This document shows, piece by piece, positions 4,519 to 25,431 of a stretch of 64,000 bases of DNA (positions are counted from its first letter, which is position 1; every line of letters begins with the position of its first letter). The notes beneath the pieces are model-generated. The model ran no database searches. It was not told where the DNA came from and saw only the letters and a program-made list of their open reading frames with translations. This stretch comes from Halopseudomonas xiamenensis (GTDB lineage Bacteria > Pseudomonadota > Gammaproteobacteria > Pseudomonadales > Pseudomonadaceae). The stretch spans positions 62,001 through 126,000 of the forward strand of contig NZ_JACLGO010000008.1 in the NCBI RefSeq assembly GCF_014219065.1, written 5' to 3'. Made by a program: the position numbers and the translations under genes.

Positions 4519-4520
4519 GC

Positions 4521-9198: not shown

Positions 9199-9228
9199 GC
9201 CGGAGCAGTCGGTCTCCCAGCCCAGGGT

Positions 9229-9543: not shown

Positions 9544-10031
9544 AGGGGTACTTGCCCAAGCTCAGCCTGTACGCCAGCACTCGCAAGACCAAGTCCGATT
9601 CGGAAACCAGCTTCAACCAGACCTATGACACCGACAGTATCGGCATCCAGCTGACTGTGCCGCTGTTTGCCGGGGGCGGCGTCAGCGGGCTGTCGCGCCA
9701 GGCCAGTTACCGGCTGGAGCAGGCCAGTCACGAACTGGATGCGCAGACCAGTAGCTTGCTCAACGAGTTGCGCCGCCAGTACAACCTGTACCAGACCAGC
9801 GCCACCCGCACCCGCGCCTATGAAATGGCGGTGCAGTCGGTCGATACCCTGGTCGAGGCCACACGGCAAAGCGTATTGGGCGGCGAACGGGTCAACCTCG
9901 ACGTGCTCGACGCCCAACACCAACTCTACAGCGCCCGCCGCGACCTCGCCGATGCCCGGCATCAGGCGCGGTTGGCGCGGTTGCAACTGAAGTATCTGGC
10001 GGGGGTGGTGGAGCTGGCGGACCTGGAGTAG
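9543..10031 (+). pseudogene. TolC-family type I secretion outer-membrane protein, 3' fragment
   Basis: About 160 codons encode GYLPKLSLYAST, IGIQLTVPLFAGGGVSGLSRQASYRLEQASHELDAQ and VLGGERVNLDVLDAQHQLYSARRDLADARHQARLARLQLKYLAGV. This is the second half of a TolC/HasF/AprF-type channel (second coiled-coil repeat and equatorial segment). The N-terminal signal peptide and first repeat are gone. The frame differs from that of the sigma fragment before it, so no fusion is made. Together the two pieces look like the two ends of an operon whose middle was lost. Confidence 0.78.
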
Positions 10032-10040
10032 GAGTCTCTA

Positions 10041-10110
10041 CCTCGTCATCCTTCGCCTGCGCGAAGGATGACGAGGTGGGGGCAAAGGATTACGAGGTGG
10101 GGCGAAGGAT
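10041..10110. repeat. Perfect 16-bp inverted repeat with two degenerate direct copies
   Basis: Bases 10041-10056 pair perfectly with 10061-10076 around a CTGC loop. The right arm motif (GCGAAGGATGACGAGG-type) then recurs in diverged form twice, at about 10082-10100 and 10101-10111. There is no T run, so this looks like an interspersed hairpin repeat that may act as a Rho-aided or mRNA-end structure. The rest of the 10032-10326 gap holds the Fur-like site and no gene. Confidence 0.7.
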
Positions 10111-10182
10111 GATAGGAGTGCGGGGGGTGACGGGGTGACAAAAGCGGTCTTTCTCGCAGTTCATGAATTATTTTAAGAGGAA

Positions 10183-10200
10183 TTATCATTTCGATTACCG
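10183..10200 (+). promoter_or_regulatory. Possible Fur-type site before the haem oxygenase operon
   Basis: Three head-to-tail hexamers, ATTATC-ATTTCG-ATTACC, resemble the reverse form of the Fur hexamer GATAAT, the middle one poorly. They lie in an AT-rich patch about 130 bp before the haem oxygenase. Iron control fits the operon content; the site match itself is modest. Confidence 0.35.
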
Positions 10201-10326
10201 GATTCATGTCGCTCATCCGTCATATACATAGAGAGTGATGCATTCCGCCCGGACGCATCAGCCAATTCATCCCCATCAGCCAGTTCCGCCTATCACCCGG
10301 ATGGCTCGGATCAGCCAGGAGTCGAC

Positions 10327-10956
10327 ATGACCTCGGTAGTAGACAGCATTGCAGAACCGCTTTCCCTTCACCTCAAGAACGGCACCACCGCACTGCATGA
10401 GAGCCTTGACCAGCGGATCATGGCGCTGGCGCCTTTCTCCAGCCGGGAGCGGTTTGTCTGCTTTCTGCGCATGCAACTGCGCCTGCATCTGGTGACCTCG
10501 CCGCTGTACCAGAATGCCGAACTGCAGCAGCGCCTGCCGGGGTTGGGGGAGCGCAATCGGTTGGATGCGATCCTGCTGGACTGTGCTGATTTCGACGTGA
10601 CCGAGGAGCAACTGGCCGAGGACCGCAGTGCGGCCGCCACGGTGTGGATCGAGCCGGGTGAAGCGGCGCTGGGCTGGCTGTATACCCATGAGGGATCGAC
10701 CCTGGGCGCAGCCTTCCTGCTCAAGCATGCCCGCGACCAGCTGGGGCTGTCGGAAACCCATGGCGCTCGCCATCTGGCAGGTCATGCCGAGGGACGCGGC
10801 CTGCACTGGCGGCGTTTCAAGGAGGAGCTGGATGCCATCGAGCTGACCGCCGCACAGCGGGAGCAGGCACTGGTCGGTGCCCGCCAGGCATTCGCCTTCG
10901 TGCGTGCCTCGGTCGAGTCGCTGATGGCCGCTGAGCGAGCTGCGGACGCGGTCTGA
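10327..10956 (+). CDS. Haem oxygenase (PigA/HemO-like)
   Basis: This 209-aa protein of the bacterial haem oxygenase family (PF01126) opens haem to biliverdin, releasing iron and CO. NGTTALHESLDQRIM carries the likely proximal haem-ligand histidine (His24). The distal helix is seen as YTHEGSTLGAAFLLKHA. Length and sequence are closest to the Pseudomonas PigA/HemO type rather than the phytochrome-linked BphO, since no phytochrome gene is present. Its stop overlaps the start of the DUF454 gene by one base (TGATG). ExbB, ExbD and TonB genes follow, placing it in an iron/haem-uptake unit. Confidence 0.88.
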   Translation: MTSVVDSIAEPLSLHLKNGTTALHESLDQRIMALAPFSSRERFVCFLRMQLRLHLVTSPLYQNAELQQRLPGLGERNRLDAILLDCADFDVTEEQLAEDRSAAATVWIEPGEAALGWLYTHEGSTLGAAFLLKHARDQLGLSETHGARHLAGHAEGRGLHWRRFKEELDAIELTAAQREQALVGARQAFAFVRASVESLMAAERAADAV

Positions 10957-11327
10957 TGCGGGTGCTGGGCTGGCGTTTGCTGGCGCTGGTGTTCGTTGCC
11001 CTGGGATTGATCGGAGTGGTGCTGCCGGGCATGCCGACCACGGTGTTCATGCTGCTGGCCGCCTGGGCCTCGGGCAAGGGCTGGCCGGCGTTGAATGCCT
11101 GGTTGCTGGCCCATCCGCGTTTCGGCCCGCCGATCGACAACTGGTATCGGCATCGGGCGATTCCGCGCCGAGCCAAATGGCTGGCAGCGATCAGCATGCT
11201 GATAAGCATGCCGCTGGTGTGCATTACAGCCACTGCTCTGTGGGTGCAGTGGCTGGTGCCGTCGACCATGTGTGCGGTGTTGCTGTGGTTGTGTACCCGC
11301 CCCGAACTGGGCGTATCCCGCTCTTGA
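10956..11327 (+). CDS. YbaN/DUF454 family inner-membrane protein
   Basis: This 123-aa protein begins MRVLGWRLLALVFVALGLIGVVLPGMPTTVFMLLAAW and continues with HPRFGPPIDNWYRHRAIPRRAKW, the conserved DUF454 pattern. It has two long hydrophobic segments at the N-terminus and a further pair near residues 75-110. Function is unknown for the family, but in Pseudomonas and relatives the gene is often next to haem oxygenase and TonB-system genes. Coupling to haem oxygenase by a one-base overlap supports a shared role. Confidence 0.85.
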   Translation: MRVLGWRLLALVFVALGLIGVVLPGMPTTVFMLLAAWASGKGWPALNAWLLAHPRFGPPIDNWYRHRAIPRRAKWLAAISMLISMPLVCITATALWVQWLVPSTMCAVLLWLCTRPELGVSRS

Positions 11328-11389
11328 GGGCAACCGGTTGCACCGGCCGACAGTGCCCAGGTGTAGCTGAATCGAAGAGGTAAGCTGAG

Positions 11390-12349
11390 ATGAAAGTTCA
11401 AACATGCGCCCTTGGCCTGTTGCTGGCCGTGCTGGCGCTGCCGGTGTTCGCCCAGGATAGCGGCAGTGTACAGGCCGAGATGCCGGCAACCATCGAGGTG
11501 CCCACCGCTCTGGTCGAGGGTGAGCAGGCCGTACTGGATGAAGCTGCAGCAGCGCAGTTGACCAGTGGGGAGGAGGCTCTGGCTACCGACGGGGAGCCGA
11601 GCGCCGAGACTGCCATGCTGGCGCACGACCTGTCGCCCTGGGGCATGTATCTGGCCGCCGACTGGGTGGTCAAATCGGTGATGATCGGCCTGCTGCTGGC
11701 GTCGGTGCTGACCTGGGCGATCTGGATCTTCAAGGTGCTGCAACTGCATGTGGCGCGCCACCGCGCACGCAGCATCCTGCAGATACTGGTGAATGCGGAG
11801 AACTTTGCCGATGCGCGCCAGTATTGTGCGGAGCAGCGCGGGGTCGGCCTGGACCTGCTGGGGGCGACCGCCCATGAGTTGCAGCTGTCGGCGCAGGGTC
11901 CGGCATCCGATGACGGCATCAAGGAGCGGGTGGCGGCGCGCCTGGATCGGGTGCAGGTATCGGCTGGCTCGCACATGAGCCGGGGTACCGGGGTGCTCGC
12001 CACCATTGGCGCGGTATCCCCCTTCGTCGGTCTGTTCGGCACGGTGTGGGGCATCATGAATGCCTTTATCGGTATTGCCCACTCGCAGACCACCAACCTG
12101 GCGGTGGTGGCGCCGGGTATCGCCGAGGCGCTGCTGGCCACTGCCTTCGGTCTGGTTGCGGCAATCCCGGCGGTGGTGATCTACAACCACTTCGCCCGCT
12201 CCATCGGTGTGTATCGTGCGGTCCTGGGGGATATCGCCACGGCGTTGCTGATCCTGGTCAGCCGTGATCTGGACCGCAAGCGCCCCGGTGGTAGAAGCCT
12301 GGGGGACGATCGACATACCGTGGTGCCCATGGCGCGGAGTGCCGGCTGA
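11390..12349 (+). CDS. exbB: TonB-system energiser ExbB
   Basis: This 319-aa inner-membrane protein begins with a cleavable-looking signal (VQTCALGLLLAVLALPVFAQ) and a periplasmic acidic extension of about 60 residues, as in long ExbB variants. It has three helices, at about 94-116, 198-220 and 243-265. The channel signature is [28 protein letters not shown] and [30 protein letters not shown]. With ExbD and TonB it couples the proton gradient to outer-membrane transport. An AGAGGTAAG ribosome site precedes the ATG. Its stop overlaps the exbD start by one base. Confidence 0.95.
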   Translation: MKVQTCALGLLLAVLALPVFAQDSGSVQAEMPATIEVPTALVEGEQAVLDEAAAAQLTSGEEALATDGEPSAETAMLAHDLSPWGMYLAADWVVKSVMIGLLLASVLTWAIWIFKVLQLHVARHRARSILQILVNAENFADARQYCAEQRGVGLDLLGATAHELQLSAQGPASDDGIKERVAARLDRVQVSAGSHMSRGTGVLATIGAVSPFVGLFGTVWGIMNAFIGIAHSQTTNLAVVAPGIAEALLATAFGLVAAIPAVVIYNHFARSIGVYRAVLGDIATALLILVSRDLDRKRPGGRSLGDDRHTVVPMARSAG

Positions 12350-12783
12350 TGGCGTTTCGCATGCAGGACACCAGCGCCGCCGATCTACCGGACAATCACG
12401 AGATCAACGTTACCCCGTTCATCGACGTGATGCTGGTGCTGCTGATCATCTTCATGGTCGCCGCGCCACTGGCCACGGTCAGCGTGCCAGTGGACCTGCC
12501 GGCCTCCTCGGCGACACCGCAACCGGCTCCGGACGAGCCGCTGTACCTGACGATACAGACCGACCTGTCCCTCACCCTCGGTGATGACTTGCGGGTGGAG
12601 CGTGACAGTCTGGCAGACCACATGCGCCAGCTGGCGCCCGATGAGGAGCAGCGCATCTTCCTGCGGGCCGACCAGACGGTGCCCTATGGAGAACTGATGG
12701 AGGTCATGAACGTGCTGGGTAGCGCTGGTTACCTGAAGGTCGCCCTGGTGGGGCTGGAGCGGCCAGCGGGTGATGCGCTGTGA
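12349..12783 (+). CDS. exbD: TonB-system component ExbD
   Basis: This 144-aa protein has the ExbD/TolR layout: a short cytoplasmic N-terminus (MQDTSAADLPDNHEINVTPFIDVMLVLLIIFMVAAP) whose helix holds the essential Asp in PFIDVMLV, then a periplasmic domain ending VALVGLERPAGDAL. It forms the ExbB5-ExbD2 proton channel with its neighbour. The last codons overlap the GTG start of tonB by four bases, so exbB-exbD-tonB are translationally coupled. Confidence 0.95.
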   Translation: MAFRMQDTSAADLPDNHEINVTPFIDVMLVLLIIFMVAAPLATVSVPVDLPASSATPQPAPDEPLYLTIQTDLSLTLGDDLRVERDSLADHMRQLAPDEEQRIFLRADQTVPYGELMEVMNVLGSAGYLKVALVGLERPAGDAL

Positions 12784-13586
12784 CACCTCTGGCAGGGCCG
12801 GGGGGAATGGCGAGCAGGCGCGGGCCGCTGTATTGGTCGCTGGCCGGGTTGTTTGCACTGTCCCTGCATGCTGCGGTGGCGGCATTCTATCTGTGGCATC
12901 CTGCAAGTCCACCGCCGCCGGACATACCTGCCGCCGCACCCTTCGTGGTTGAAATGGCCATGTTCATGGCTGCGCCGGAGGATGCCGCGAAGGAGATGCC
13001 GCCGGGGCCGGAGCAGGTCGAGTCGGTGAAGGCGCCGGTAACGCCACCCGACGTGGTCGAGCAGAAACTGCCCGAGTTGCCCAGGGTGGAGCGCCCAGCC
13101 GAAGTACCGATACACAAGCCGGTGGTGGCGGAACGACCCAGGCCTGAGCCTGAGCCGGAGGTCGAACCGGAGCCGGAGCAGCCGCCGGAGGAGTACAGCG
13201 AGGTCTCCGCACCGGAAACCACGGCGCCGCCGAGCATGAATGTGGCTCAGGTCAGCGATCAGGTGACGGCACCCATGCAGGGCGCATTCAGTCAGCAGCA
13301 GGTCATCGATGCGCAGCAGCAATGGCAACAGATCCTGCATGCGCATCTGGAGCGCCACAAGCGCTCACCCCGCGAGACAAGGCGCAAGGGCGTGAGCCTG
13401 GTGAGCATTGTCATCGACCGGCAAGGGCAGGTGTTGTCGGTCAACCTGAAACAGGGCAGTGGTGTGAATCTGTTCGACCGCGAGGCCCTGGCCACCATCC
13501 GCCGGGCCGATCCGCTGCCGCCGCTGCCGGCCGAGATGCGTGGGGAGACCCTCGCCCTGACTCTGCCGGTCCAGTTCAATATGTGA
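12780..13586 (+). CDS. tonB: TonB family energy transducer
   Basis: This 268-aa protein has one N-terminal membrane anchor (LYWSLAGLFALSLHAAVAAFYLW, with the Ser/His face expected for ExbB/D contact), a proline-rich spacer with PEPEPEVEPEPEQPPEE, and a C-terminal TonB domain with RKGVSLVSIVIDRQGQVLSVNLKQGSGVNLFDREALATIRRADPLPPLP. Translation starts at GTG 12780 overlapping exbD or at ATG 12807. Because it sits with haem oxygenase, it may be a dedicated HasB-like TonB rather than the housekeeping one. No receptor gene is left beside it. Confidence 0.93.
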   Translation: MTPLAGPGGMASRRGPLYWSLAGLFALSLHAAVAAFYLWHPASPPPPDIPAAAPFVVEMAMFMAAPEDAAKEMPPGPEQVESVKAPVTPPDVVEQKLPELPRVERPAEVPIHKPVVAERPRPEPEPEVEPEPEQPPEEYSEVSAPETTAPPSMNVAQVSDQVTAPMQGAFSQQQVIDAQQQWQQILHAHLERHKRSPRETRRKGVSLVSIVIDRQGQVLSVNLKQGSGVNLFDREALATIRRADPLPPLPAEMRGETLALTLPVQFNM

Positions 13587-13661: not shown

Positions 13662-14090
13662 CTACAGATAATGCCCTACATAGGCGGCGGTAAAAGCCGC
13701 CTCCTGAAACTGCTTCAGGTCGGTATCGGCAAAGGGGATGGGCAGCGGATTGTCAGCCAGAATGGCCTTGCTCTGCGTCGCGGAGATCAGGCAGACCTCG
13801 ATAGCCGGTTCAGCCATCAACTGAATCGCCGCCTCCAGCTTGAAGCTGATCGCACCGCCGGCGAACTTGCCCTTCTGCAAACGCTCCTTGATGACCACCC
13901 GCTGCACTTTGTAATCTCGCAGGAACTGTACGAGATCCTTCTGAAACCGCTGCAGATCGGCGCGGGTATGATCCTTCTTCAGTGACAGCTTGCGAATACG
14001 GCTGTCCGGCAGGCTGAACAGTTCCTGATCCTTGTGCAGCAGGCACACTACGGCATCGCTGCCGGTCAACTCGATACCACAAATACGCAT
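13662..14090 (-). CDS. DUF3010 family protein
   Basis: This 142-aa soluble protein begins MRICGIELTGSDAVVCLL and has KKDHTRADLQRFQKDLVQFLRDYKVQRVVIKERLQKGKFAGGAISFKLEAAIQLM, the conserved core of DUF3010. The fold appears RNase H-like (a beta strand with GIELTGSDA, similar to RuvC-type starts), but this is only my impression. An excellent AAGGAGGAG ribosome site overlaps the end of the deaminase remnant. Function is unknown. Confidence 0.8.
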   Translation of the reverse strand: MRICGIELTGSDAVVCLLHKDQELFSLPDSRIRKLSLKKDHTRADLQRFQKDLVQFLRDYKVQRVVIKERLQKGKFAGGAISFKLEAAIQLMAEPAIEVCLISATQSKAILADNPLPIPFADTDLKQFQEAAFTAAYVGHYL

Positions 14091-14104
14091 ACTGATACTC
14101 CTCC

Positions 14105-14279
14105 TTAATGTTCTTTATGAAACTGGATATGCAACTGATGCACCTGTGCGGACGGTTCCTCGTCCGGCCCCGCCACCGGGGTATCGGTGATTACCTCACC
14201 AATACGCAACGCCCGCCACAGCCTCGGCTGCCAGCTCCATGCACCGTTTCAGATATACGCGATCCTGTTCGCGGATCAT
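14105..14279 (-). pseudogene. Nucleoside deaminase remnant with internal deletion
   Basis: From 14279 the minus strand reads MIREQDRVYLKRCMELAAEAVAG, the typical first helix of cytidine/guanine deaminases. Directly afterwards, in a shifted frame, comes ITDTPVAGPDEEPSAQVHQLHIQFHK, which resembles the family's C-terminal VIGP-x-E-x-H-x-x-FW pattern. The zinc-binding HAE and PCxxC motifs between them are absent. This fits a deletion of about 100 codons. The rest of the 14091-14526 gap holds only a tRNA-like fragment near 14421-14446. Confidence 0.5.
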
Positions 14280-14526
14280 GGGCGTTTCTCCAATCTGATT
14301 TTCTGTCCGACCTCCGGCAATCCGCAAGGCTGGCCCGGGAAGATGCGGCCAGCCATGTCCGAGGCAACGGCCGGGCTCGCGTAACGGGAAAGTGTGGGCA
14401 TTATGGGCTGAGTGTTCGCCGGGGGCTACCAATTGAGCGACCGGGCCATGCAAGGTTTTGCTGATCTCTCCGAAAAGAGGTAATGTCGGTCGTGGCACTT
14501 TGATGTTGTGGCAAGGGAGCTTAGGG

Positions 14527-15378
14527 ATGGGCCGCCGTAAACGTACTTCAGCCTTCGAAGATTTCATCACCATTCTGGCCCGATTGCCCTGGTGGGTGTG
14601 CCTGATCATCGGCTTGATCGCCTGGCTGATCCTTCACCCGATAGCCAGCAGTCTCACTGAAACTCCCCGGGTCGTCAGCCCCAGCGATCTGAGCGGCATA
14701 CTCGTAGGCCAGATTCTCCGCACGCTCGCCTTCGGTGGCCAGTTTCTGATTCCCTTCGCCTGTGTATTGGCCGCCATCGGCTCAATCGCCTCCCGCAGCC
14801 GCCGCAAGAAACTCGTAGCAGACGTGCAAGCCGCCACCCAACCCGGCAAAGCCATCGACGGCCTCAGCTGGCGCCAGTTTGAACAATTGGTCGGCGAAGC
14901 CTTTCGCCGCCAGGGCTACAGCATCACCGAAACAGGCGGCAACGGCCCCGACGGTGGTATCGATCTGATCCTGCGCAAGGATCGGGAGAAATACCTGGTG
15001 CAGTGCAAACACTGGCGCTCGCTAAAGGTGGGTGTCGCGGTTATCCGCGAGTTCTTCGGAGCCATGGCGGTAGAAGGAGCTGCCGGCGGCTTTGTCGTCA
15101 CCTCCGGCCAATTCACCAAAGAGGCCGAAGCCTTCGCATCCGGGCGCAATATCCAGTTGGTCGATGGCGCCGTGCTAAGACGGTGGATAGCGCAGCATCG
15201 GGATGCTGTCGTTCAGGCTGAACCTGTTATGGCAGCAGGTCAGCAGTCCCATGAGCCAAGCTGTCCCAAGTGCAATGCACCTATGGTTAAACGTGTCGCC
15301 AAGCGAGGTGCGAATGCGGGGAATGCTTTTTGGGGGTGTTCGGGGTATCCGGGATGTCGTGGGGTGGTGAGTTTGTGA
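14527..15378 (+). CDS. Mrr-type restriction endonuclease with membrane helices and topoisomerase-type zinc finger
   Basis: This 283-aa protein starts at MGRRKRTSAFEDF (GGAGCTTAGGG ribosome site; longer starts look unlikely). Two membrane helices (about 20-40 and 60-88) are followed by an Mrr_cat domain: LSWRQFEQLVGEAFRRQGYSITETGGNGPDGGIDLIL, then KYLVQCKHW, giving the D-x15-QxK catalytic pattern. GGFVVTSGQFTKEA follows, and a C-terminal CPKC-x14-CSGYPGC zinc finger of the topoisomerase I type. The family cuts foreign or modified DNA. The membrane anchor plus finger is a known but less common layout. It opens the accessory island. Confidence 0.88.
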   Translation: MGRRKRTSAFEDFITILARLPWWVCLIIGLIAWLILHPIASSLTETPRVVSPSDLSGILVGQILRTLAFGGQFLIPFACVLAAIGSIASRSRRKKLVADVQAATQPGKAIDGLSWRQFEQLVGEAFRRQGYSITETGGNGPDGGIDLILRKDREKYLVQCKHWRSLKVGVAVIREFFGAMAVEGAAGGFVVTSGQFTKEAEAFASGRNIQLVDGAVLRRWIAQHRDAVVQAEPVMAAGQQSHEPSCPKCNAPMVKRVAKRGANAGNAFWGCSGYPGCRGVVSL

Positions 15379-15611
15379 GCGGCAGATGCTTTCGCAAGTT
15401 GGGCGGGCTGGTTGGGAGTAGTTCGGGGAATGTGAGTTTGCAACTGGCGGCTTTCGGCCAGAAGCAGCCACTCATACCTTGTCGCTTTCGCCCCATTGCG
15501 GCTGTTCTGGCTTGCGGTCCAGCCTTCCTGCTGAAATGGCATCTCCTGGTGGCCGTCTTAAGAGGCCTCTAGGGAGTCCTGGGGCGATTAACTTGGCTGC
15601 TCGCAGGTGAT

Positions 15612-17837
15612 TTAGAATGGAGCGGGTTCACCACCCAGAAGCCGCGCCAAATCTGCGATCTGAGTTTCCAATGCTGCATTCAGGGAGGCTCTCAGTTTCT
15701 TGTCTACCTCCTTGTGCAGTCGGATTTTCTCGATGGCCAAGGCAATGATGAACTCCATCGCCGCTTCACCGCGCTCGTGTGAATAACCCATAGCCACGCG
15801 CAAGATGATATCTGCCATCGCAGCGCTGTACGTTTCGTGGGCGCTGTAATCCAGCTCTGTGGGCAGCGCAGCTCTCAGAAATGCTGCCTGGATGATCCCG
15901 TCGTCGTATCGCGAAAATACGTCCGGTGTCAGTAGCACCTGCTGCAACTCACCAGACTCCAACCGCTTCGCATCCTTGATTTTCGCGCCCTCCCGCGCGT
16001 TCTGCAAAATCCAGAGGATGGTCAGAAAAATGTCTACGGTCGACGCTTTTTTAACATCTTCCTTACCGTTTACGAAGGCGAAGCCATCGGTGAGTTTCAT
16101 CTCTTTTTGGGTAAAACTGCTGGGCCAAAAAGCTTGAACAGACAGGCCGGAGCCTTTCTCGTCGGCAAGCTGAGCGGCACGATCTTTGATCAGTGCTGAA
16201 CAGTCATCACCAAAGGCATCCAGCTTCATCAGCAAATCCTTTTCCCTTGTCCAATGATTGCTACACACAGCACTGCCGGCAGGAATCTCCATGTAGGCTT
16301 TAAAAACGTATCGGCGTTCACCTTTTGGTGGCTGCGTCAGATTGGAGATTAGGTCTTTCATCTGCTCATAGGTTCGACCGAAAAGTGCTCCTACGATGTA
16401 CAGGCGGGTGCCCGTTTTTTGTGCGCTACGAAGTCTTCTGCTGATTCTCTGCAGCACGGTTCCACGCTCTGCTGCGGCGGCAACCACGATGACCGAGCCA
16501 TGAAGCTCTTTATCTTGGTTGAAACTGTCTTCTCTGACTTTCGTGCAGCTCAGCCCTCGTTCAGTCAGGTAATTGAAGGCCTCAGTCGCGAGCTTCTCGC
16601 TTGCCGAGTCATTGTCATAGATGACTAGCTTTGTAGAGGCAGGCGACTCTTGGTCAAGGCACTTTGTGAACCAGTCTGTGAAACCCTTGGTTTCGACCAG
16701 TTTGTCCTTCTCGACATGCACAGTGCGGGGTCTTTCACGCTCTACGATGGGTTTAACACAGCTGAAGAGTCCCTTGCCTATGAAGGAGTCAAACTTCGTC
16801 TGAAGGCCATCCGGGAGATGATCCATGCTGATATTCAACAACCTGGTCTCCGTGTGCTCTGCGATGAAACGCTCGCCATGAATGCGGATAGTCTGTCTGA
16901 AATCCGCGGTTTCCGACTCAGCAGGTGCTTCGAAGTCTTGGGGGCGTTCCAGTGTATGCAAAATGGTGCAATTTTCAGACTTATCCAGGAAAGACAGAAC
17001 CGTGGCTACGCGAGAGGGTGGTGCCCTGTTGATACGGATCCACTGATCAGCCAACCCGCAGCTTGTCGATGCGGATATCAAGCAGAGGGCCGTACTACCG
17101 CCAGGCAATGGCCCATCTTTCAAACCATCATGGGAGTGGAAGGATCTGATGGTCTGGATTGTTGGCTTCCCAAATCGCAACTGGTAAAGCTGCATCGACA
17201 GGGCAACAGGTAAGAATGCCATTGTATCGAGATAGACAGTGTCAGGCTCCCCCAACGTGTTGGTTGCGGCTTGCTTGAGCATCCTCAGGGCTGCAAATGC
17301 AATAAAGTGTGCATGCAGGGTTTCTGAAAGGAGGTTCTCAGCACGGATAAAATAGTTCGCGGAACGGGAGGAGGGCTTTGAAAACAAGAAACCCGCTGGA
17401 GCTTTGGTCAACACCGACGTACCTCTAACCAACTTCTCCATACCTGCAGTGACGATTGCCGAGGTACCGTTTTGCAACAGCTTTAAAAGGCCTTTTTTTT
17501 TCGCCCCAGAGATGTGTCGATACTTGGTAATGCTGCCGTGGCTATCGTAATACACAAAGCCATAGCTCAGTGAGGAACCCGCGTCACGACGCTGCAAAGC
17601 ACTCGACAACGGGGAAGCTTTGTTTTGGTACTGCTTCTGAGTCTGATCTTCAAAGCATTGCGGTACGAGAAAAATGAGGTGATCAGGCAGAATGTAGCCA
17701 GGCAAACGCTTCTGCAGAGCGTCTGTCACTTGGATGGAGGTTATCGACTCAGGCCCTGTGAAAAAGACTACCACCTGTGCGGGCTCTGCTCCGGGAGCTG
17801 GTGTGAGGCATACCTCGAAATCGTAAAGATCAGACAT
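15612..17837 (-). CDS. Unknown 741-aa protein with two phosphoribosyltransferase-like segments
   Basis: I do not recognise this protein as a named family. Residues about 160-290 hold NYFIRAENLLSETLHAH, VYLDTMAFLPVALSMQLYQLRFGKP (201-225) and GGSTALCLISASTSCGLADQWI (247-267); this order of strand, helix and ISASTSCG loop resembles a type I phosphoribosyltransferase. Residues 402-488 repeat the pattern with KLVIYDNDSASEKLA and SVIVVAAAAERGTVLQRISRRLRSAQKTGTRLYIVGALF. The canonical PRPP-binding acidic pair is not seen, so it may bind rather than convert a nucleotide. The C-terminal 250 residues look helical. It starts one base after the GHKL ATPase gene ends, so the two form one operon. Codon use is more AT-rich than the flanks. 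Confidence 0.6.
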   Translation of the reverse strand: MSDLYDFEVCLTPAPGAEPAQVVVFFTGPESITSIQVTDALQKRLPGYILPDHLIFLVPQCFEDQTQKQYQNKASPLSSALQRRDAGSSLSYGFVYYDSHGSITKYRHISGAKKKGLLKLLQNGTSAIVTAGMEKLVRGTSVLTKAPAGFLFSKPSSRSANYFIRAENLLSETLHAHFIAFAALRMLKQAATNTLGEPDTVYLDTMAFLPVALSMQLYQLRFGKPTIQTIRSFHSHDGLKDGPLPGGSTALCLISASTSCGLADQWIRINRAPPSRVATVLSFLDKSENCTILHTLERPQDFEAPAESETADFRQTIRIHGERFIAEHTETRLLNISMDHLPDGLQTKFDSFIGKGLFSCVKPIVERERPRTVHVEKDKLVETKGFTDWFTKCLDQESPASTKLVIYDNDSASEKLATEAFNYLTERGLSCTKVREDSFNQDKELHGSVIVVAAAAERGTVLQRISRRLRSAQKTGTRLYIVGALFGRTYEQMKDLISNLTQPPKGERRYVFKAYMEIPAGSAVCSNHWTREKDLLMKLDAFGDDCSALIKDRAAQLADEKGSGLSVQAFWPSSFTQKEMKLTDGFAFVNGKEDVKKASTVDIFLTILWILQNAREGAKIKDAKRLESGELQQVLLTPDVFSRYDDGIIQAAFLRAALPTELDYSAHETYSAAMADIILRVAMGYSHERGEAAMEFIIALAIEKIRLHKEVDKKLRASLNAALETQIADLARLLGGEPAPF

Positions 17838-17838
17838 G

Positions 17839-19011
17839 TCAGTTCACCGGGATGCAGATGGTGAAAACAGTCCCTTCGGCTGTGGCAAGCTTACCATCCC
17901 CACTCCATTCTTTGGGGTGGTAATCCACCTCGCCAGCGTGTCCTTGGAATGTCTGGGAGAGGCAGAGTCTGCCAGTGCGCAGGCGTACATAGGCCTGGAG
18001 TTTGTTGAAAGCCTGAACGGCGTTGTGTAAACCCATACCCGATTCCTTCGACGGCTTGGTTGTTACATGTTTTTTAAAGCAGTCGAGAGTGGCTTGAAGC
18101 TCATCCTCAAGTGACAACCTTTCCAAGGTTTCAAGCGGTTTGCCCTCTTTGATCGAGAGCCAGCGCCGGGCGAGGCCCGGTCCGCTATCGATGATGGAAA
18201 TCTCCAAGAAGTCCAGAGCATCGATATTCTTGACCATATGTTTGATGACAAAACGAGCGAATTCAGGCTCCGTATGGGCATAATCCGATATGTCCGTTTT
18301 GTTGATGCGGCTCGCCTTGACCGTCATACCACGCAAACCCTTTTTGTATTTGTTGCCCTCTAGGTCGATTGATGCGTGTTCGTCGGCGTTTGCAAGTAGT
18401 TCCTCAAGAACCGTTCCTAGGGCGGGGAGTCCTCTTCGCATCAGGGCATCGCGCTCATGCCTGGTATGCATTAATAAGGACAAGTCTTCGATTAAGGTAG
18501 AAAAGGTCGGCCATTCATGCACTTTGGGCTCTTGCTCCCAGTGGTAGAATGGTTTGATGTATTCCCTTTGCGCATAGTTGATACAGAAGAGATTGATCAT
18601 TCTGGGGCGTGCCCCTTTGCCACTTGAGGTGTGCTTTAGATCACCCTCAAACATTGCATCAATCAGCGGTCTAATTTCGCCCAGCGCAGCACGTCGCCCA
18701 ATCGGATCATGAGTTTCTGACTCAATGTGAGAGCTCATCACGAGCGCCGCTAGACCTGCTGCTGTTCTGGCAAGTTGCGATACATGCTCGAGTGCGCCTG
18801 CGGTGTCAGAGTACAGATGCAGTGTGCTTTTTTCTTGGGTTTTTGCCCATGTAATCACAAGCTGAGCGAGAGAGGCATCGACTCCTAGAAGTCCTCCGTA
18901 GCTCATAGACACGGGTAACCTCAATTGCTGGTCGGTATGACACAAGGGGTACAGATCCTCAATGTCATACGTGTTCATGCTTCGGGTGATATTCATCAGC
19001 ACCTCTGACAT
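17839..19011 (-). CDS. GHKL (HSP90/histidine-kinase/MutL-type) ATPase, partner of the 741-aa protein
   Basis: This 390-aa protein has all the GHKL nucleotide-binding boxes: N box LEELLANADEHA (202-213; Asn208, Asp210), G1 box IIDSGPGLA (273-281; Asp275), G2 box SKESGMGLHNAV (321-332) and a final GTVFTICIPV strand. There is no dimerisation/phosphorylation H-box and no sensor helix, so it is not an ordinary histidine kinase. The first 190 residues form an unassigned domain. Nearby in-frame ATGs at codons 1, 6 and 12 leave the start uncertain. It is the first gene of a minus-strand pair, and an insertion sequence sits 188 bp upstream, in or near its promoter. Confidence 0.78.
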   Translation of the reverse strand: MSEVLMNITRSMNTYDIEDLYPLCHTDQQLRLPVSMSYGGLLGVDASLAQLVITWAKTQEKSTLHLYSDTAGALEHVSQLARTAAGLAALVMSSHIESETHDPIGRRAALGEIRPLIDAMFEGDLKHTSSGKGARPRMINLFCINYAQREYIKPFYHWEQEPKVHEWPTFSTLIEDLSLLMHTRHERDALMRRGLPALGTVLEELLANADEHASIDLEGNKYKKGLRGMTVKASRINKTDISDYAHTEPEFARFVIKHMVKNIDALDFLEISIIDSGPGLARRWLSIKEGKPLETLERLSLEDELQATLDCFKKHVTTKPSKESGMGLHNAVQAFNKLQAYVRLRTGRLCLSQTFQGHAGEVDYHPKEWSGDGKLATAEGTVFTICIPVN

Positions 19012-19267
19012 CCATCGATTGAGTGCTGGGCCGAGCTAAAAGCAAGGAGCACCGAAAACTGAAACCTGCCGAAGATTCCGGACTCATGATCGAGCAGGGA
19101 ACACTGCGAGTACGGCGGCTCAGAGCTAAGCGAGTTTACGTAACCAAGCTCCCGCTTGGAAGGCTGCTTCTCGCTACAGCAACTGAATTGCCCTAGGAGT
19201 GACCTGCCCCCCGATTTCAGTACCACGCCGAACTTAGTAGAGTCCGTTTTCCGAGCAGGAGACGGTA

Positions 19268-19531
19268 GTGAAAAAGCGTTTTACAGAAGAACAGATTCTC
19301 GACTTTCTTAAGCAGGCAGAGGCCGGCGTGCCGGTGAAGGAGCTGTGCCGGCGGCATGGCTTCAGTGATGCATCCTTCTACACCTGGCGTGCCAAGTTCG
19401 GTGGCATGACCGTGCCGGACGCCAAGCGGCTCAAGGATCTCGAGCTGGAGAACAGCCGGCTAAAGAAGCTGCTAGCCGAAGCCCATCTGGATATCGAGGC
19501 ACTTAAGGTGGTCGCCCGGGGAAAAGGGTAA
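19268..19531 (+). CDS. IS407-type transposase OrfA (helix-turn-helix subunit)
   Basis: This 87-aa protein starts at a GTG with [46 protein letters not shown], the HTH_Tnp_1 fold that binds the terminal repeats. It is followed by the leucine-zipper-like [26 protein letters not shown]. An AAAAG run near 19522-19526, just before its stop, is the likely -1 frameshift site producing the OrfAB transposase. Confidence 0.94.
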
Positions 19532-19554
19532 GCCCGACAGCACGGCGGGAGGCG

Positions 19555-20406
19555 GTGCAGGAGATGCAGGCCAGAACCGGTATCTCCGAGCGCCGTGCCT
19601 GTCAGCTGATCGGGCTGTCTCGCTCGGTGCTGTGCTATCAACCCCGTTCCAGCGAGCAAAACACCAGGCTGCAATCCCAACTTGTGGAGCTGGCACAGGA
19701 GCGTCGGCGCTTTGGCTATCGGCGCCTGCATATCCTGCTGCGGCGGGCTGGCATGCAGGTCAACCATAAACGGATCTATCGCCTGTACCGGGCTGCCGGG
19801 TTGATGGTGAAGCGCCGGAGGCGCCGCCACGGTGTCGCCGTAGAGCGCGAGCGGCTGAGTCTGCCGAGCGCGCCGAATCAGGTATGGTCGATGGACTTCG
19901 TCTTCGATGCACTCAGTACGGGACGTAGGATCAAATGTCTGACGGTGGTCGATGATTTCACCAAGGAGGTGGTGGGTATCCTTGTGGATCACGGCATCAG
20001 CGGCTTCCGTGTTACTCGCGCATTAGATGAAATGGCCCGATTCCGCGGTTACCCCAAGGCAATCCGCACCGACCAGGGCCCCGAATTCACCGGCAAGGCT
20101 CTTGATCAATGGGCCTATCAGCGCGGCATCAAGCTGAAGCTGATTCAGCCTGGCAAGCCGACACAGAATGCGTTCATCGAATCATTCAATGGCAAGTTTC
20201 GGGATGAATGCCTGAATGAGCACTGGTTCTGCTCACTGGCCGAGGCCAGAATCCGCATCGCGGCCTGGCGAAGGGACTACAACGAACACCGACCGCACAG
20301 CGCTATCGGGAATCACACCCCGGCAGAATTCGCTGCGCATTGGAGGGCAAGCCAACAGCAACCCCGACATGAAAAACTAACATCAACCCCAGGGCCTACT
20401 AACTAG
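19555..20406 (+). CDS. IS407-type transposase OrfB (DDE catalytic subunit)
   Basis: The 283-aa frame lies in the -1 register to OrfA; the open frame extends further upstream so that an OrfAB fusion can form. It has an HTH_21 segment ([51 protein letters not shown]) and an rve integrase core with the DDE triad at [19 protein letters not shown] and [21 protein letters not shown]. All three acidic residues are present, so the element appears able to move. Confidence 0.95.
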
Positions 20407-20755
20407 GAAACGGTACTAAAACTGGGGGCAGGTCAGGAGTTGTAGACACATCCCGTGTGGCTGATATTGGCCGAGCGCACGCCGGTACAGCCTGCTATCG
20501 ACCGAGGGCGGAGAGGGAAATCAAGTCAACCTCCAAGATTACTTAGCGGGTAATCTATGATGCTTGCGCTCTTCCCATCGGGCGCCAGTCGTATAGGCCA
20601 GGGCTACGACCTGCGCTGACGTTGCCCTACCCGTGAATAGTGAAGCGAACCGCTGTGCCTGCAGCGAATGGGCGAGCGCCCAAGCAAATTGCTTGACTCC
20701 TGACTTACGAGCAATTCAAGAAGCAATCGCCAGCCAAAACTCAAAGACGAGACCC

Positions 20756-20806
20756 TTTACACGAAATTATTTTGATGTAAAATCGCGTTTAACGAAACTA
20801 TATTGA
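20756..20806 (+). promoter_or_regulatory. Promoter with two direct-repeat operator candidates for the ImmA/IrrE operon
   Basis: A -35 like TTTACA (20756-20761), 16-bp spacer and TAAAAT (20778-20783) make a good sigma-70 promoter. ACGAAATTATTTTGA (20761-20775) is repeated 31 bp on as ACGAAACTATATTGA (20792-20806), 13 of 15 bases identical and three helical turns apart, on one DNA face. The first copy covers the spacer and the second the likely transcription start. Autorepression by the XRE domain protein is inferred. The rest of the 20440-20815 gap shows no gene. Confidence 0.6.
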
Positions 20807-20815
20807 GTGCGTACT

Positions 20816-21463
20816 ATGCCGCAGTCTAGTCGTAAGGCCATTGCTGAACTGATCATGCAAAACCTCCCTCGTGATCTCCTGTTGGGCATTGAGGAAGGCT
20901 TGAACGTGGGTGCTGCTCGGGCTTTGTCAGCAGCCAAAGGCATGCACACTGGCCATGTCAAACATGCAGTTGGCCAAATGCGCAGCTTCCATATGAACGA
21001 GACGTTCAATGATGCACTGATCGCTGGCGGAGCGAACCCTACCCCGATCAAGGGTAACAGCCTCGTTATCGGGCGTTCCGGCATGCTGACATTGAGCCGT
21101 TTCAATGTATCCGCTCGCACTTGGAACAACGGTCGTCGTAGCGCAATGCGCCGTCAACTTGCCCAAGCAAATCAAGCCATTGAACAGCTGGTTCAGCCTG
21201 GCCTTTTCTCGCCGATGCCGATTACTGAGGCGACCGTTTTCTTTGTGGCATCGTTTAGTGGCTCTATGTCGTTTGAACCCGAAGCCCCACAAACGATCTA
21301 CATTGCCGTGCCTGATAAGAACATGAAGTCCTGGATTTTCCAAGAGCCGCTTGACAGCTTCTGCTCTCGCTACTTTGAGGGCGAGAGCACTGTTCAACCA
21401 GACATGGCTCAACCCAAGCTCAAGCCAGCCGTCGCAGCGGAAACGCGGAAAAATCAATCATGA
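20816..21463 (+). CDS. Unknown 215-aa protein, first gene of an XRE/ImmA-IrrE pair
   Basis: I do not recognise this family. The start MPQSSRKAIAELIM is chosen over a GTG three codons earlier because it lies just past the second operator repeat. It is soluble, with a basic middle (WNNGRRSAMRRQLAQANQAIEQL) and a beta-rich C-terminal half (ATVFFVASFSGSMSFEPEAPQTIYIAVPDKNMKSWIF). Its last four bases overlap the start of the XRE-ImmA gene (ATGA), so both are translated together. Such pairing is typical of toxin-antitoxin or phage-response units in which the ImmA/IrrE protease controls its partner. Which one is toxic cannot be told. Confidence 0.6.
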   Translation: MPQSSRKAIAELIMQNLPRDLLLGIEEGLNVGAARALSAAKGMHTGHVKHAVGQMRSFHMNETFNDALIAGGANPTPIKGNSLVIGRSGMLTLSRFNVSARTWNNGRRSAMRRQLAQANQAIEQLVQPGLFSPMPITEATVFFVASFSGSMSFEPEAPQTIYIAVPDKNMKSWIFQEPLDSFCSRYFEGESTVQPDMAQPKLKPAVAAETRKNQS

Positions 21464-22662
21464 GTCGAGGAGTCAATGGGTTCCAACCGGGCCGCCTGAG
21501 TCAAGCTCTTGCGGCCCGTCGTCTTCCTCAAGTTCAGCTCGCTGCGATGATTGGCGTTTCGCCAGCGACTGTTAGCAAATGGCGCGGGGGACATCAGGAT
21601 CCGGAAGCTGACGCGCTTGAGCGCCTTGCTGCCGTTATCAACGTAAGCCCCGAGTGGTTTACCCGCCCCCTTCCGGCCAAGTCATCTCTTCCCCTATTCC
21701 GAAGCAATGCTTCGGCGCATGTCGCTGCTCGGCAGATGTTGGAGGCGCGGCTGGAGTGGGCCCAAGACATCTCAATTGCCTTGGAAGAGTTCGTTGACTT
21801 CCCTGAGCTCAGCCTGCCAGTACGAAGTTTCGAGTCGCCTGAACAGATCAGCGCTTCGGATATCGAAGAGGCCGCTTGTGAATGCCGAGATTTGTGGGGC
21901 CTAGGTAGGCGAGCGATCCCTGATCTTGCACTAGCTGTTGAGGGAGCAGGGGTAATCGTCGTCCGCGAAGAGACAGGTATCGCGCCTATAGAAGGGCTAT
22001 CAGCGTGGAGTGAAGCGTTGAAGAGGCCGATAGTTTTGCTATCTGCAGATAAGGCAAATGGATTCCGCAGCCGGTTCGACCTGGCTCATGAGCTCGGCCA
22101 CTTGGTACTCCATAAGGGCATAGAGCGCTCCACCGATCCAGTTCGTTACAAGCAGATGGAAGATCAGGCGCATCGCTTTGCTGGGGCTTTCCTACTGCCT
22201 GCTGAGACATTTGCTGCTGAGGTGAAAACACCTGTCACCTTGGATAGCTTGCTGCTGCTCAAACAGCGCTGGGGAGTCTCGGTCGCTGCCATCATGATGC
22301 GCCTTCATGCTTTGGGAATCATCGACCAGGAAGAAAAGTCTCTCCTCTTCAAGCGCCGCTCTGCACGTTGGGGAGTGAAGTCTGAACCAGGTGACGAGGC
22401 TCGCGTTCCTGAGCAACCTCGGCTTCTCAAGAGAACCATCGAACTTCTCGCTTCGTCTGGTGTTATGCCTATCGAATCAGTCCCGAGTTACATCGGCTTG
22501 GCTGCATTTGATATCGAGCGTCTGACAGGCCTCCCTGAAGGTTACCTGTCTCAAAGTGGTGTTGTGTTGTCTCTGACAAAACTGAAGGCCAGCGTTGCCC
22601 GCGATGCATCCCCTGTTACGACTGACGGCAGCGCTACCATTTTGCCCTTCCATCGACACTGA
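21460..22662 (+). CDS. XRE helix-turn-helix protein with ImmA/IrrE zinc metallopeptidase domain
   Basis: This 400-aa protein has an XRE DNA-binding domain (residues about 11-70: LSQALAARRLPQVQLAAMIGVSPATVSKWRGG), then an ImmA/IrrE (COG2856) domain with the zinc motif AHELGHLVLHKG (HELGH at 210-214) and the third-ligand region MEDQAHRFAGAFLLP (Glu234 likely). A C-terminal extension of about 100 residues may be a sensor domain. Relatives cleave repressors (ImmA, IrrE/DdrO) or act in Xre-COG2856 toxin-antitoxin modules. It is coupled to the upstream unknown protein. Confidence 0.85.
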   Translation: MSRGVNGFQPGRLSQALAARRLPQVQLAAMIGVSPATVSKWRGGHQDPEADALERLAAVINVSPEWFTRPLPAKSSLPLFRSNASAHVAARQMLEARLEWAQDISIALEEFVDFPELSLPVRSFESPEQISASDIEEAACECRDLWGLGRRAIPDLALAVEGAGVIVVREETGIAPIEGLSAWSEALKRPIVLLSADKANGFRSRFDLAHELGHLVLHKGIERSTDPVRYKQMEDQAHRFAGAFLLPAETFAAEVKTPVTLDSLLLLKQRWGVSVAAIMMRLHALGIIDQEEKSLLFKRRSARWGVKSEPGDEARVPEQPRLLKRTIELLASSGVMPIESVPSYIGLAAFDIERLTGLPEGYLSQSGVVLSLTKLKASVARDASPVTTDGSATILPFHRH

Positions 22663-22894
22663 TGCATAGATAGGCATCTGACGTCATGTGGATGCCTTCT
22701 GTGTCATGCAGCAATGTACTGAATAGCCTCGTCGGCCAAGAACCGTTTCTCAGTTACCTTCGCGTCGTCGAGTCTGGCCACAAACCTTACAGTTGTACGT
22801 TCGGCACCAGTGCCCGCGAATACCAGGGAAGCGCATCTTCAGCGTCCGCTTTTGGCCGAAAGCAGTCTATCGACCTACTGCATTCAGCCTAAGC

Positions 22895-23548
22895 TCATGA
22901 CGGGGCATTCTGGCTCTTCAACCTCACCACCCCTAACGCAATCAACGCCTGCCCCGCAAAGTAAATCGTCACAATCACCGGTACCGCATACGCAAACGGC
23001 ATCGCAAACTTGTTCACTCCAATCAGCGAATCCGCGATCACAAACAGCATCGCGCCCAGCCACAGCAGCCCCGGTTTGTCTTCCACCCGGCAGGCCATGA
23101 AGGCCATGGCATACAGGCACAGCAGATAGATGGCGACGGGCACCTGATAGGCACCGGCGGCGGGCACCAGCCATACGGCGAGCAGCAGGCTGTAGAGGGT
23201 GACGGGGAGCATGCGCCAGCGTAGCCAGGGTTTGCCTTTGGCCATGAGGGCGAAGGCGGCGACGAAGGCGAGTTGGTTGACCAGAAAGGAGCACAGCGCC
23301 TGGATGAACAGGCCGTCGCGATCGCCGTAGTCGAGGAAGAAGTCGCCAGCTGCGGCGCCGATAAATCCCACGCCCAGCAGGACGCCGGTGATGCCAGGCC
23401 AGGCGCGCCAGGCGAGCAGGGCGAAGATCAGCATGGGGATGGGTTTGAGCAGCCAGCTCAGTGGGTAGGGTTTGAACGGTATCAGAGCAAGGTAGATCAG
23501 CCCCAGTACGACGGCCACAGCAAAATAACGGCGCTCGAAGGTGGACAT
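22895..23548 (-). CDS. Lysoplasmalogenase, YhhN/TMEM86 family
   Basis: This 217-aa integral membrane protein has seven to eight hydrophobic helices. Family marks are KPIPMLIFALLAW, GVGFIGAAAGDFFLDY (acidic Asp pair of the active site), FIQALCSFLVNQLAFVAAF, LWLGAMLFVIADSLIGVNKF and YFAGQALIALGVV. Members hydrolyse the vinyl-ether bond of lysoplasmalogens or have related lipid roles. It stands alone on the minus strand at the right edge of the accessory island, where the high-GC core resumes. Confidence 0.88.
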   Translation of the reverse strand: MSTFERRYFAVAVVLGLIYLALIPFKPYPLSWLLKPIPMLIFALLAWRAWPGITGVLLGVGFIGAAAGDFFLDYGDRDGLFIQALCSFLVNQLAFVAAFALMAKGKPWLRWRMLPVTLYSLLLAVWLVPAAGAYQVPVAIYLLCLYAMAFMACRVEDKPGLLWLGAMLFVIADSLIGVNKFAMPFAYAVPVIVTIYFAGQALIALGVVRLKSQNAPS

Positions 23549-24225: not shown

Positions 24226-24618
24226 TTATCTGACAACTTCGATACGTACCTTCAGCAAGCCGGCGGAGGTGTCACCGATACTGGCGAAGGAAGAACGGGA
24301 CAGATCGATAACCCGGCCGCGCACAAAGGGGCCACGGTCGTTGATGCGCACCACCACGCTTTTACCATTGCGCACGTTGGTCACCCTTACCTTCGAGCCG
24401 AAGGGTAGCGTGCGGTGTGCTGCGGTATTCCGGCCGGCTTTATAGAGCTCGCCGCTGGCGGTTTTTCTATTCTGGAATTTGTCTGCGTAGTACGACGCCT
24501 GTCCTGCTTCCGTGTGCCCCACCCATTGGCCGCCGGCGCCGGGTTTGAAAGGGGTGCTGCAGGCGGATAGGGCTGTCAGGCACAGCAGCAGGATGAATGC
24601 CTTGATCGTGTGGTGCAT
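24226..24618 (-). CDS. RlpA-like double-psi beta-barrel lipoprotein
   Basis: This 130-aa protein has a lipoprotein signal (FILLLCLTALSAC, lipid-modified Cys20) and a DPBB_1 domain: GQASYYADKFQNRKTASGELYKAGRNTAAHRTLPFGSKVRVTN, VVRINDRGPFVRGRVIDLSRSSF. The RlpA catalytic pair is visible as the Asp in RINDRGPF and the His in AAHRTLPF. It lacks the SPOR domain of full RlpA, so it is not the septal version in its standard form. Its place between btuD and the adenosyltransferase-like gene is probably incidental. Confidence 0.88.
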   Translation of the reverse strand: MHHTIKAFILLLCLTALSACSTPFKPGAGGQWVGHTEAGQASYYADKFQNRKTASGELYKAGRNTAAHRTLPFGSKVRVTNVRNGKSVVVRINDRGPFVRGRVIDLSRSSFASIGDTSAGLLKVRIEVVR

Positions 24619-24702
24619 TGATTACCTTCATGTTCATCTGGTTGCCCGCCACAGGTTCCGGTGCCCGCCTCTAACGGACGGCAAGGGACCTCTGCGGTTC
24701 GG

Positions 24703-25431
24703 CTACTTGGGCACTATGATCGGCGGATGGTTCTCCAGGTCGATATGCACGTCGATATGAAAGGCTTCTTGCAGGTGCTCCTTGGTCAGTACATCCTTCG
24801 GTGGGCCGACGGCAATCACGCGGCCCTGGTGCAGCAGGCACAGGCGGTCGCAATAACGTGCCGCCAGCGACAGATCGTGGATCGACAGCATCACGCCACG
24901 TCCGCTCTGGGCATAGCGGCGCAGCAGGCGCAGCACATTCTGCTGCTGGTACAGATCGAGGCTGGCGACCGGCTCGTCGGCCAGCAGTACTCGGGGTTGG
25001 CCGGCCAGTACCCGGGCCAGCCAGACGCGGGCCTGCTGGCCACCCGAGAGCTGGTCCACCTGGCGCTCCAGCCAGTCCTCGACCTGGGCCGCCGCGGCCG
25101 CCTGGGCAATGGCCTTGGCATCGCTATCGCCCCAGGGCAGCCGGCCGAGCGCAATCACATCGCGCACCGACAGGGCCCAGGCACTCTGGCTGCTCTGCGG
25201 CAGGAAGCCGAGCTGCTGCGCCCGTTGCCGCTCGGGGATGGCGGCCAGTGCGCTGCCGGCCAGGCGGATGCTGCCCTGATACGCCTGGATGCCGGCCAGG
25301 CAGTGCAGCAGGGTGGACTTGCCGGCGCCATTGGCACCGATGACGCCGAGCATTTCACCGGGAGCCAGATTCAGGCTGACATTCACCAGACGCTGGCCGA
25401 CGTTCAACTCATGGATGTCGATCAGATCCAC
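24703..25431 (-). CDS. btuD: Vitamin B12 ABC transporter ATP-binding protein BtuD
   Basis: A GTG at 25431 with a GGAG eight bases before it is preferred to the longer GTG at 25449; it overlaps btuC by ten bases. The 242-aa protein has Walker A GANGAGKSTLLH, Q-loop LPQSSQ, signature LSGGQQARVWLARVLAG, Walker B VLLADEP and the H-loop MLSIHDLSLAARY. This is the FecE/BtuD branch of importer ATPases. Order btuB-btuF-btuC-btuD behind a cobalamin riboswitch fixes the substrate as cobalamin. Confidence 0.92.
   Translation of the reverse strand: MDLIDIHELNVGQRLVNVSLNLAPGEMLGVIGANGAGKSTLLHCLAGIQAYQGSIRLAGSALAAIPERQRAQQLGFLPQSSQSAWALSVRDVIALGRLPWGDSDAKAIAQAAAAAQVEDWLERQVDQLSGGQQARVWLARVLAGQPRVLLADEPVASLDLYQQQNVLRLLRRYAQSGRGVMLSIHDLSLAARYCDRLCLLHQGRVIAVGPPKDVLTKEHLQEAFHIDVHIDLENHPPIIVPK

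Follow-up and report, generated by a model that had tools for sequence, protein, structure and literature searches.

A gene pair for a GHKL ATPase and a tandem pseudo-phosphoribosyltransferase in Halopseudomonas xiamenensis matches the candidate defence system PDC-M65

What do two tightly spaced genes in a 64,000-nucleotide stretch of the Halopseudomonas xiamenensis genome (contig NZ_JACLGO010000008.1, positions 62,001 to 126,000; hereafter the window) encode, and do they act in defence against phages? The upstream gene, A (17839-19011, minus strand), encodes a GHKL ATPase of 390 aa, and the downstream gene, B (15612-17837, minus strand), a protein of 741 aa. A single base (17838) separates the stop codon of A from the ATG of B. 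These open reading frames (ORFs) lie where a reading made from the letters without database searches (the sequence-only reading) had placed a two-gene unit with a one-base gap and a 741-aa second protein. That reading knew of no named system with this pair and considered it undescribed, a claim that has to be withdrawn, as PADLOC-DB 2 lists it: protein B matches profile PDC-M65B (2.1e-81, profile positions 15-748 of 763) and protein A, which adjoins it, matches PDC-M65A (3.8e-22, positions 4-343 of 398). By these side-by-side profile matches the pair is the PADLOC candidate system PDC-M65, already catalogued and uncharacterised, and no difference from the catalogued entry was found. Since the profile matches cover most of A and of B and the two genes are tightly spaced across loci, the ORFs are not chance ORFs. 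New here are the description of B as a double pseudo-phosphoribosyltransferase, the ancestry of its first domain and a cassette in which the pair is preceded by thyX.

PADLOC candidate systems (PDCs) stem from "guilt-by-embedding", and the majority are described as still unvalidated in the relevant passages of the source (PMC12988326). PDC-M66, the sister entry of PDC-M65, is given as HipA with DUF3037 (PMC12548924), and DS-6, a HipA-like/DUF3037 pair, is reported as validated (PMC13092281). As the HipA/DUF3037 kind (PDC-M66) matches the validated DS-6, the PDC class seems to hold real systems. The figure legends on DefensePredictor list one validated phosphoribosyltransferase (PRTase) system and one predicted HATPase system, neither of which is shown there to be the A-B pair (PMC13092281). 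A literature search, whose coverage did not extend to the preprint server carrying the PDC preprint, retrieved no paper naming PDC-M65 or treating the pair.

Protein B is predicted, from the PADLOC profile, a structural model and alignments, to contain two PRTase-like domains in tandem followed by a helical region. Domain 1 (residues ~125-335; 16833-17465, minus strand) aligns by profile with PyrE, the orotate phosphoribosyltransferase (OPRTase); the two keep the same register between the N-terminal motif and the phosphoribosyl pyrophosphate (PRPP) loop (hhalign, 136 columns, probability 70%), and the score was reached by 0 of 100 shuffles. A search of 398 genomes of the phylum gave, besides the strong matches, 15 weak matches to the B profile, 14 of which overlap PyrE genes; the remaining one is a distant cousin (locus L048). 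The weak matches in these 14 genomes turned out to be ordinary PyrE genes, which pointed to the ancestry of domain 1: it very probably descends from OPRTase. The acidic PRPP pair, the former site of the catalytic acids, is replaced by S255-A256 in all 23 B proteins compared and, consequently, domain 1 is not a functional OPRTase as judged by sequence. It also keeps an invariant D204 and S235, and 5 of the 14 residues that are invariant in B fall in its pocket loops.

Domain 2 (residues ~350-525; 16263-16790, minus strand) has a type I PRTase fold with a degenerate PRPP loop. The fold was found for residues 356-521 in a structure search with the predicted model, and the PRPP motif with two acidic residues is absent in 23/23 proteins, of which the one at L041 retains a single D. 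By sequence alone, domain 2 did not align significantly with PyrE (21.8; shuffle maximum 26.0). The two PRTase-like segments lacking the usual PRPP site that the sequence-only reading had described were thus recovered, one by the PyrE profile and one by structure. The C-terminal helical region (residues ~526-741; 15615-16262, minus strand), delimited by model and alignment, carries invariant R615, R643, Q650, R655 and E661, and no relative of it was found. Searches of B against Pfam, NCBIfam and PDB sequences returned no family and no solved relative; the best single-member Pfam contacts, UPRTase (0.035) and PRTase_2 (0.29), were below cut-off, and neither a STAS domain nor a DNA-binding family was matched above cut-off in Pfam. 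PRTase-CE (PF24390) was not matched at its curated cut-off, and a viral structure library gave a weak PRTase-CE match among mixed rows (1.9e-4, root-mean-square deviation 22.5). Outside the Pseudomonas group, B proteins share 22-27% identity, yet the invariant residues are fixed. The distant two-gene cousin at L048 (2040-5281) encodes a B-like protein whose domain 2 still has the canonical PRPP motif (LDDVFITG). Against PRTase-CE this protein scores E 0.074 (13.4 bits, the cut-off being 27), and it is possibly an active ancestor form.

As judged by its sequence, protein A belongs to the GHKL ATPases, and its ATP-binding motifs are complete. Although its match to Pfam HATPase_c is sub-threshold (6.5e-4), it contains an N-box (E204-N208-H212), DSGPG (275-279) and SGMGL (324-328), and the N-box E/N, DxGxG and GxG[L/Y] are conserved in 20/20 A homologues. 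The GHKL domain (residues ~190-390; 17842-18444, minus strand) is a Bergerat-fold ATPase for which the predicted model has GHKL structural matches; Foldseek with the A model gave nothing below E 0.001, and the A profile found one chance-level match (1.2) among PDB sequences. For the N-terminal ~180 aa, structural comparison gave no fold assignment, and hhalign against 13 STAS_2 segments scored 10.9, the shuffle mean being 10.9 as well. In Pfam, no histidine-kinase domain (DHp included) beyond HATPase_c was matched in A, and no nuclease domain in either protein. The sequence-only reading had called A a compact GHKL ATPase without kinase features; the first part is borne out and the second agrees with the Pfam result, but a serine-kinase role like that of CapK/VapK or SpoIIAB is compatible with it.

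Near-complete B proteins were found at 24 loci, comprising the window, 10 plasmid loci, three Pseudomonas genomes, six further genomes and four contigs from viral collections. A adjoins B in all 24, with A broken at L053 and B split at L043 and L039. In 22 loci (the distant cousin L048 counted; L039, L043 and L053 not), the distance from A to B ranges from -41 to +6 nt when longest-ORF starts are used; with annotated starts it would be +90 nt at L034 and +1 at L037. In the 398 genomes, the A profile matched in six, precisely those with a strong B match; as these six contributed to the A profile, what the result adds is the absence of any A without B. The pair was present in 1 of 96 relatives (the source genome itself) and in 3 of 369 genomes of the class, source genome and one fragment counted. 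L051 and L033 share a common cassette that is 99.7% identical over 3.9 kb (starting at the contig end in L051) and diverge beyond it, which points to recent transfer. No match was found by tblastn of phage records or by a viral-contig scan with a single protein, and two cassettes of the class to which the window belongs had no match at DNA level in E. coli genomes. Alignment-based viral-contig scans gave a few matches (one scan gave none), L054, L055 and L056 being repeats of contigs found before. A B fragment detected in Caballeronia lies outside the fetched loci. Degraded copies occur at L043, L047, L094 and L095; decay of some copies is common for defence genes. On rhizobial plasmids, L094 (3829-5222) carries A with B shortened to 74 aa, adjoining three integrase genes, and L095 (5992-6324) carries a solitary C-terminal B fragment near transposition genes.

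Defence or candidate-defence genes were present in the fetched flanks of 16 of the 24 loci, in keeping with the defence setting that had been suspected from the window alone. Named systems, by profile match or record annotation, occur at eight: Mrr and RosmerTA in the window, QatC and QatD at L002, HerA-DUF4297 at L005, LmuA/LmuB (Lamassu) at L006 (3814-7447), hsdM-hsdS and AbiEii at L041 (4852-11315), hsdR followed by the pair and then a NERD/UvrD gene at L042 (344-9498), SIR2, Argonaute and type IIG genes at L043, and LmuB at L057 (10689-12506), where this Lamassu-type gene lies near the pair; LmuA was seen in L006 only. At L041 the order is hsdM-hsdS-A-B, with hsdM-hsdS overlapping A. The position of A-B within or adjoining type I restriction genes at L041 and L042 resembles other embedded defences. 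By annotation, L035, L039 and L040 carry TIR or ThiF/ubiquitin-like genes, which we take to be defence genes, and L036, L045, L046, L052 and L053 have candidate or weaker defence matches only. In some loci the pair was also found adjoining metabolic genes. Of 40 neighbour ORFs compared with PADLOC, 27 match at <=1e-5; in a control, 0 of 10 long ORFs from 27-62 kb of the window did.

In Agrobacterium tumefaciens Q15/94, Rhizobium brockwellii and Rhizobium NZLR1, thyX precedes A. DNA similarity among these three loci (69-74%, E 1e-10) is limited to thyX-A-B, over 4.3-4.4 kb (5686-10087 at L035, 5436-9841 at L038 and 5439-9838 at L040). The Rhizobium leguminosarum locus L094 (~3616-5222) has no annotated thyX and carries a thyX remnant (6.7e-20) just before A, so that the association was seen in 4/4 Rhizobiaceae loci examined, once as a remnant. 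On this comparison thyX-A-B forms, in Rhizobiaceae, a cassette that is self-contained and transferable, and the presence of ThyX would suit either a thymidylate/pyrimidine target or a role in self-protection. At L040, several TIR genes are found upstream and dgt downstream, the latter on the opposite strand. No thyX was found in the flanks fetched for the remaining 21 of the 24 loci.

As A and B are constant partners and known defence genes recur nearby, a defence function of the pair is highly probable. We propose, tentatively and at slightly less than even chances for the model as a whole, a horizontally transferred, abortive-type anti-phage module that is pyrimidine-responsive and GHKL-switched. 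Domain 1 of B would have lost Mg-PRPP catalysis and retained a conserved pocket, which would respond to or act on a pyrimidine nucleotide or base shifted by phage infection. By binding or hydrolysing ATP, or else by phosphorylating B, A would keep the complex inactive until infection releases it, and B would then halt growth or phage replication via the pocket or the conserved C-terminal domain. In the Rhizobiaceae cassettes ThyX would be part of the same unit. That the ligand of B is a pyrimidine is inferred and may be true, with the balance somewhat against it. The sequence-only reading had proposed A as a possible sensor and B as a possible binder or modifier of a nucleotide; either partner might be the one that senses.

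Several points weigh against this proposal. Ligand, target and direction of signalling are inferred, and the proposed ligand and direction are rather less likely to be right than wrong. Intact ThyX occurs at only 3 of the 24 loci, all in Rhizobiaceae, and no A accompanies the B fragments at L047 and L095 within the stretches fetched. The PyrE profile was narrow (14 relatives of one group), the model of B is of moderate quality (predicted local distance difference test 70, predicted template modelling score 0.47), domain 1 is missing from its list of structural matches, and the pocket loops that contain 5 of the 14 invariant B residues were delimited after the alignment had been inspected. For eight of the 24 loci, neither the ORFs scanned nor the record revealed a defence gene: one ORF each was scanned at L004 and L034, four at L044 (two weak matches discounted), the record annotation alone was used for L032, L033, L037 and L038, and L051 had neither scan nor annotation. 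The 40 neighbour ORFs were selected (mostly large and near) and not random, and some of the 27 PADLOC matches among them are to generic helicases or methyltransferases; two of the 27 fit conjugation proteins better (L043:9799, MobA/MobL; L044:12891, TraG/D) and L044:784 is weak. The control is a small set whose ORFs are not confirmed as genes. Finally, of 10 cargo ORFs that relatives carry at the insertion site, none matched a PADLOC model.

The ATP site of A is complete and S255, which occupies the former catalytic-acid position, is invariant together with A256 in 23/23 B proteins, which suits a scheme of the GHKL-STAS partner-switching type (known from CapKS, VapKSC and SpoIIAB-SpoIIAA), with A as the serine kinase that acts on B: infection would activate A, B would be phosphorylated, with S255 as a candidate site, and would release or become a toxic activity. 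CapKS/VapKSC combine a GHKL kinase with a Ser-phosphorylated partner in immune loci (PMC13373217), and their likeness to A-B is that a small GHKL protein goes with a partner gene within immune operons, in some cases adjoining restriction-modification genes. The partner here, however, is a pseudo-PRTase and not a STAS protein, B has no STAS match, the N-terminal region of A gives no STAS signal, and the simpler reading of a serine in the loop of a PRTase pocket is that it contacts the ligand, so that we regard the scheme as rather unlikely. A little less unlikely is that B has an enzymatic activity of a new kind towards a nucleotide or base (e.g., pyrimidine depletion or modification), with A as regulator and ThyX restoring thymidine monophosphate (dTMP) or protecting the host. 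The conserved remodelled pocket (D204, S235, S255, A256) and the thyX cassette agree with this, as do known PRTases: they are described as probable effectors in retrons and occur with DprA in a phage-protective pair (PMC9122126), and PRTase effectors are also known from type III retrons (PMC12548924). PRTase-CE adds a further anti-phage case of the fold. But the A-B pair has tandem degenerate domains and a GHKL partner and includes neither a reverse transcriptase nor DprA, the Mg-PRPP acidic pair is gone from both domains in 23/23 proteins apart from the single D at L041, and the conserved pocket suits binding equally. Compared with PyrE and other type I PRTases, the likeness of B lies in the register of domain 1 and the fold of domain 2, whereas the lost acidic pairs, the new invariant D/S/SA pocket, the two fused copies and the extra N- and C-terminal regions set it apart.

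The pair might instead regulate its host islands or serve them as a stress module without being a defence effector, much as CapKS controls the immune operons next to it; GHKL regulators of such operons are known (PMC13373217), and at L041, L042 and L002 the pair lies inside or adjoining other defence operons. As B matched no DNA-binding family above cut-off, and the pair also stands beside metabolic genes and moves as an independent cassette, this is improbable. Another GHKL precedent is VcSduA/paraMORC3 Shedu, a GHKL ATPase with a PD-(D/E)XK nuclease (PMC12137116), in which the ATPase is proposed to govern an anti-phage effector; its effector is a nuclease in the same chain, whereas none was matched in A or B. 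The degraded copies are what one would expect of metabolic or decaying genes carried along in islands with no defence role, but the invariant residues fixed at such low identity, the constant pairing, the patchy distribution and the recurrent defence context make this very improbable. Set against these alternatives, the pyrimidine-responsive, GHKL-switched module is the explanation that we favour.

In the window, a block of ~7.5 kb (~15379-22894) comprising B, A, an IS3-family insertion sequence and RosmerTA is absent in the relatives G035, G025 and G004. Seven relatives' stretches were compared, and in these three both Mrr and a YhhN-like gene were located; as Mrr adjoins the YhhN-like gene there, the block is an insertion relative to them. 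The guanine-cytosine content in 1-kb windows is 0.50-0.54 over the pair and 0.60-0.70 at 9000-13499 and 24500-26999, so the deviating composition noted earlier is confirmed, as are the Mrr nuclease, the ImmA/IrrE unit and the insertion sequence named as neighbours. The Mrr-type restriction endonuclease (14458-15378, plus strand; 1.6e-34) is at the same site in relatives too. The IS3-family element (19200-20435, plus strand) lies between A and RosmerTA, has 18-nt inverted ends that are 89% complementary, is 86% like an element annotated as ISPa32-like, and ends ~190 bp from the start of A. RosmerTA consists of an RmrT-like toxin gene (20807-21463, plus strand; RmrT 4.8e-22) and RmrA (21460-22662, plus strand; 7.7e-130), an antitoxin with helix-turn-helix and ImmA/IrrE protease domains; units of this type are reported as phage defence in the corresponding section of PMC10440598. 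RosmerTA, Mrr and the insertion sequence were rejected as parts of the A-B unit because they stand beside A-B in the window only. The interval from the DUF3010 gene to the YhhN-like gene (13662-23548 in the window) measures ~1.1, 4.7, 6.8 and 8.8 kb in four same-genus genomes, those in which both genes were found near each other. The insertion site is variable, but the cargo of the relatives does not mark it as a defence hotspot. Promoter and terminator scans performed no better than on shuffles.

A more specific form of the favoured module, in our view unlikely in its full detail, is that B guards the pyrimidine-nucleotide supply: the invariant Asp/Ser/Ser-Ala pocket of this pseudo-OPRTase would read a pyrimidine nucleotide altered by phage takeover, and the GHKL protein would turn this into an ATP- or phosphorylation-driven growth arrest, while in Rhizobiaceae ThyX would secure host dTMP or be the monitored step. 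If true, this would be a defence class that re-uses an enzyme of de novo pyrimidine synthesis as a sensor, and a pyrimidine-nucleotide-responsive branch among the defences that watch or attack nucleotide pools. Many PDCs are without a mechanism, and for one of them the pyrimidine-enzyme ancestry, the re-tooled pocket, the GHKL partner and ThyX together may offer a testable idea.

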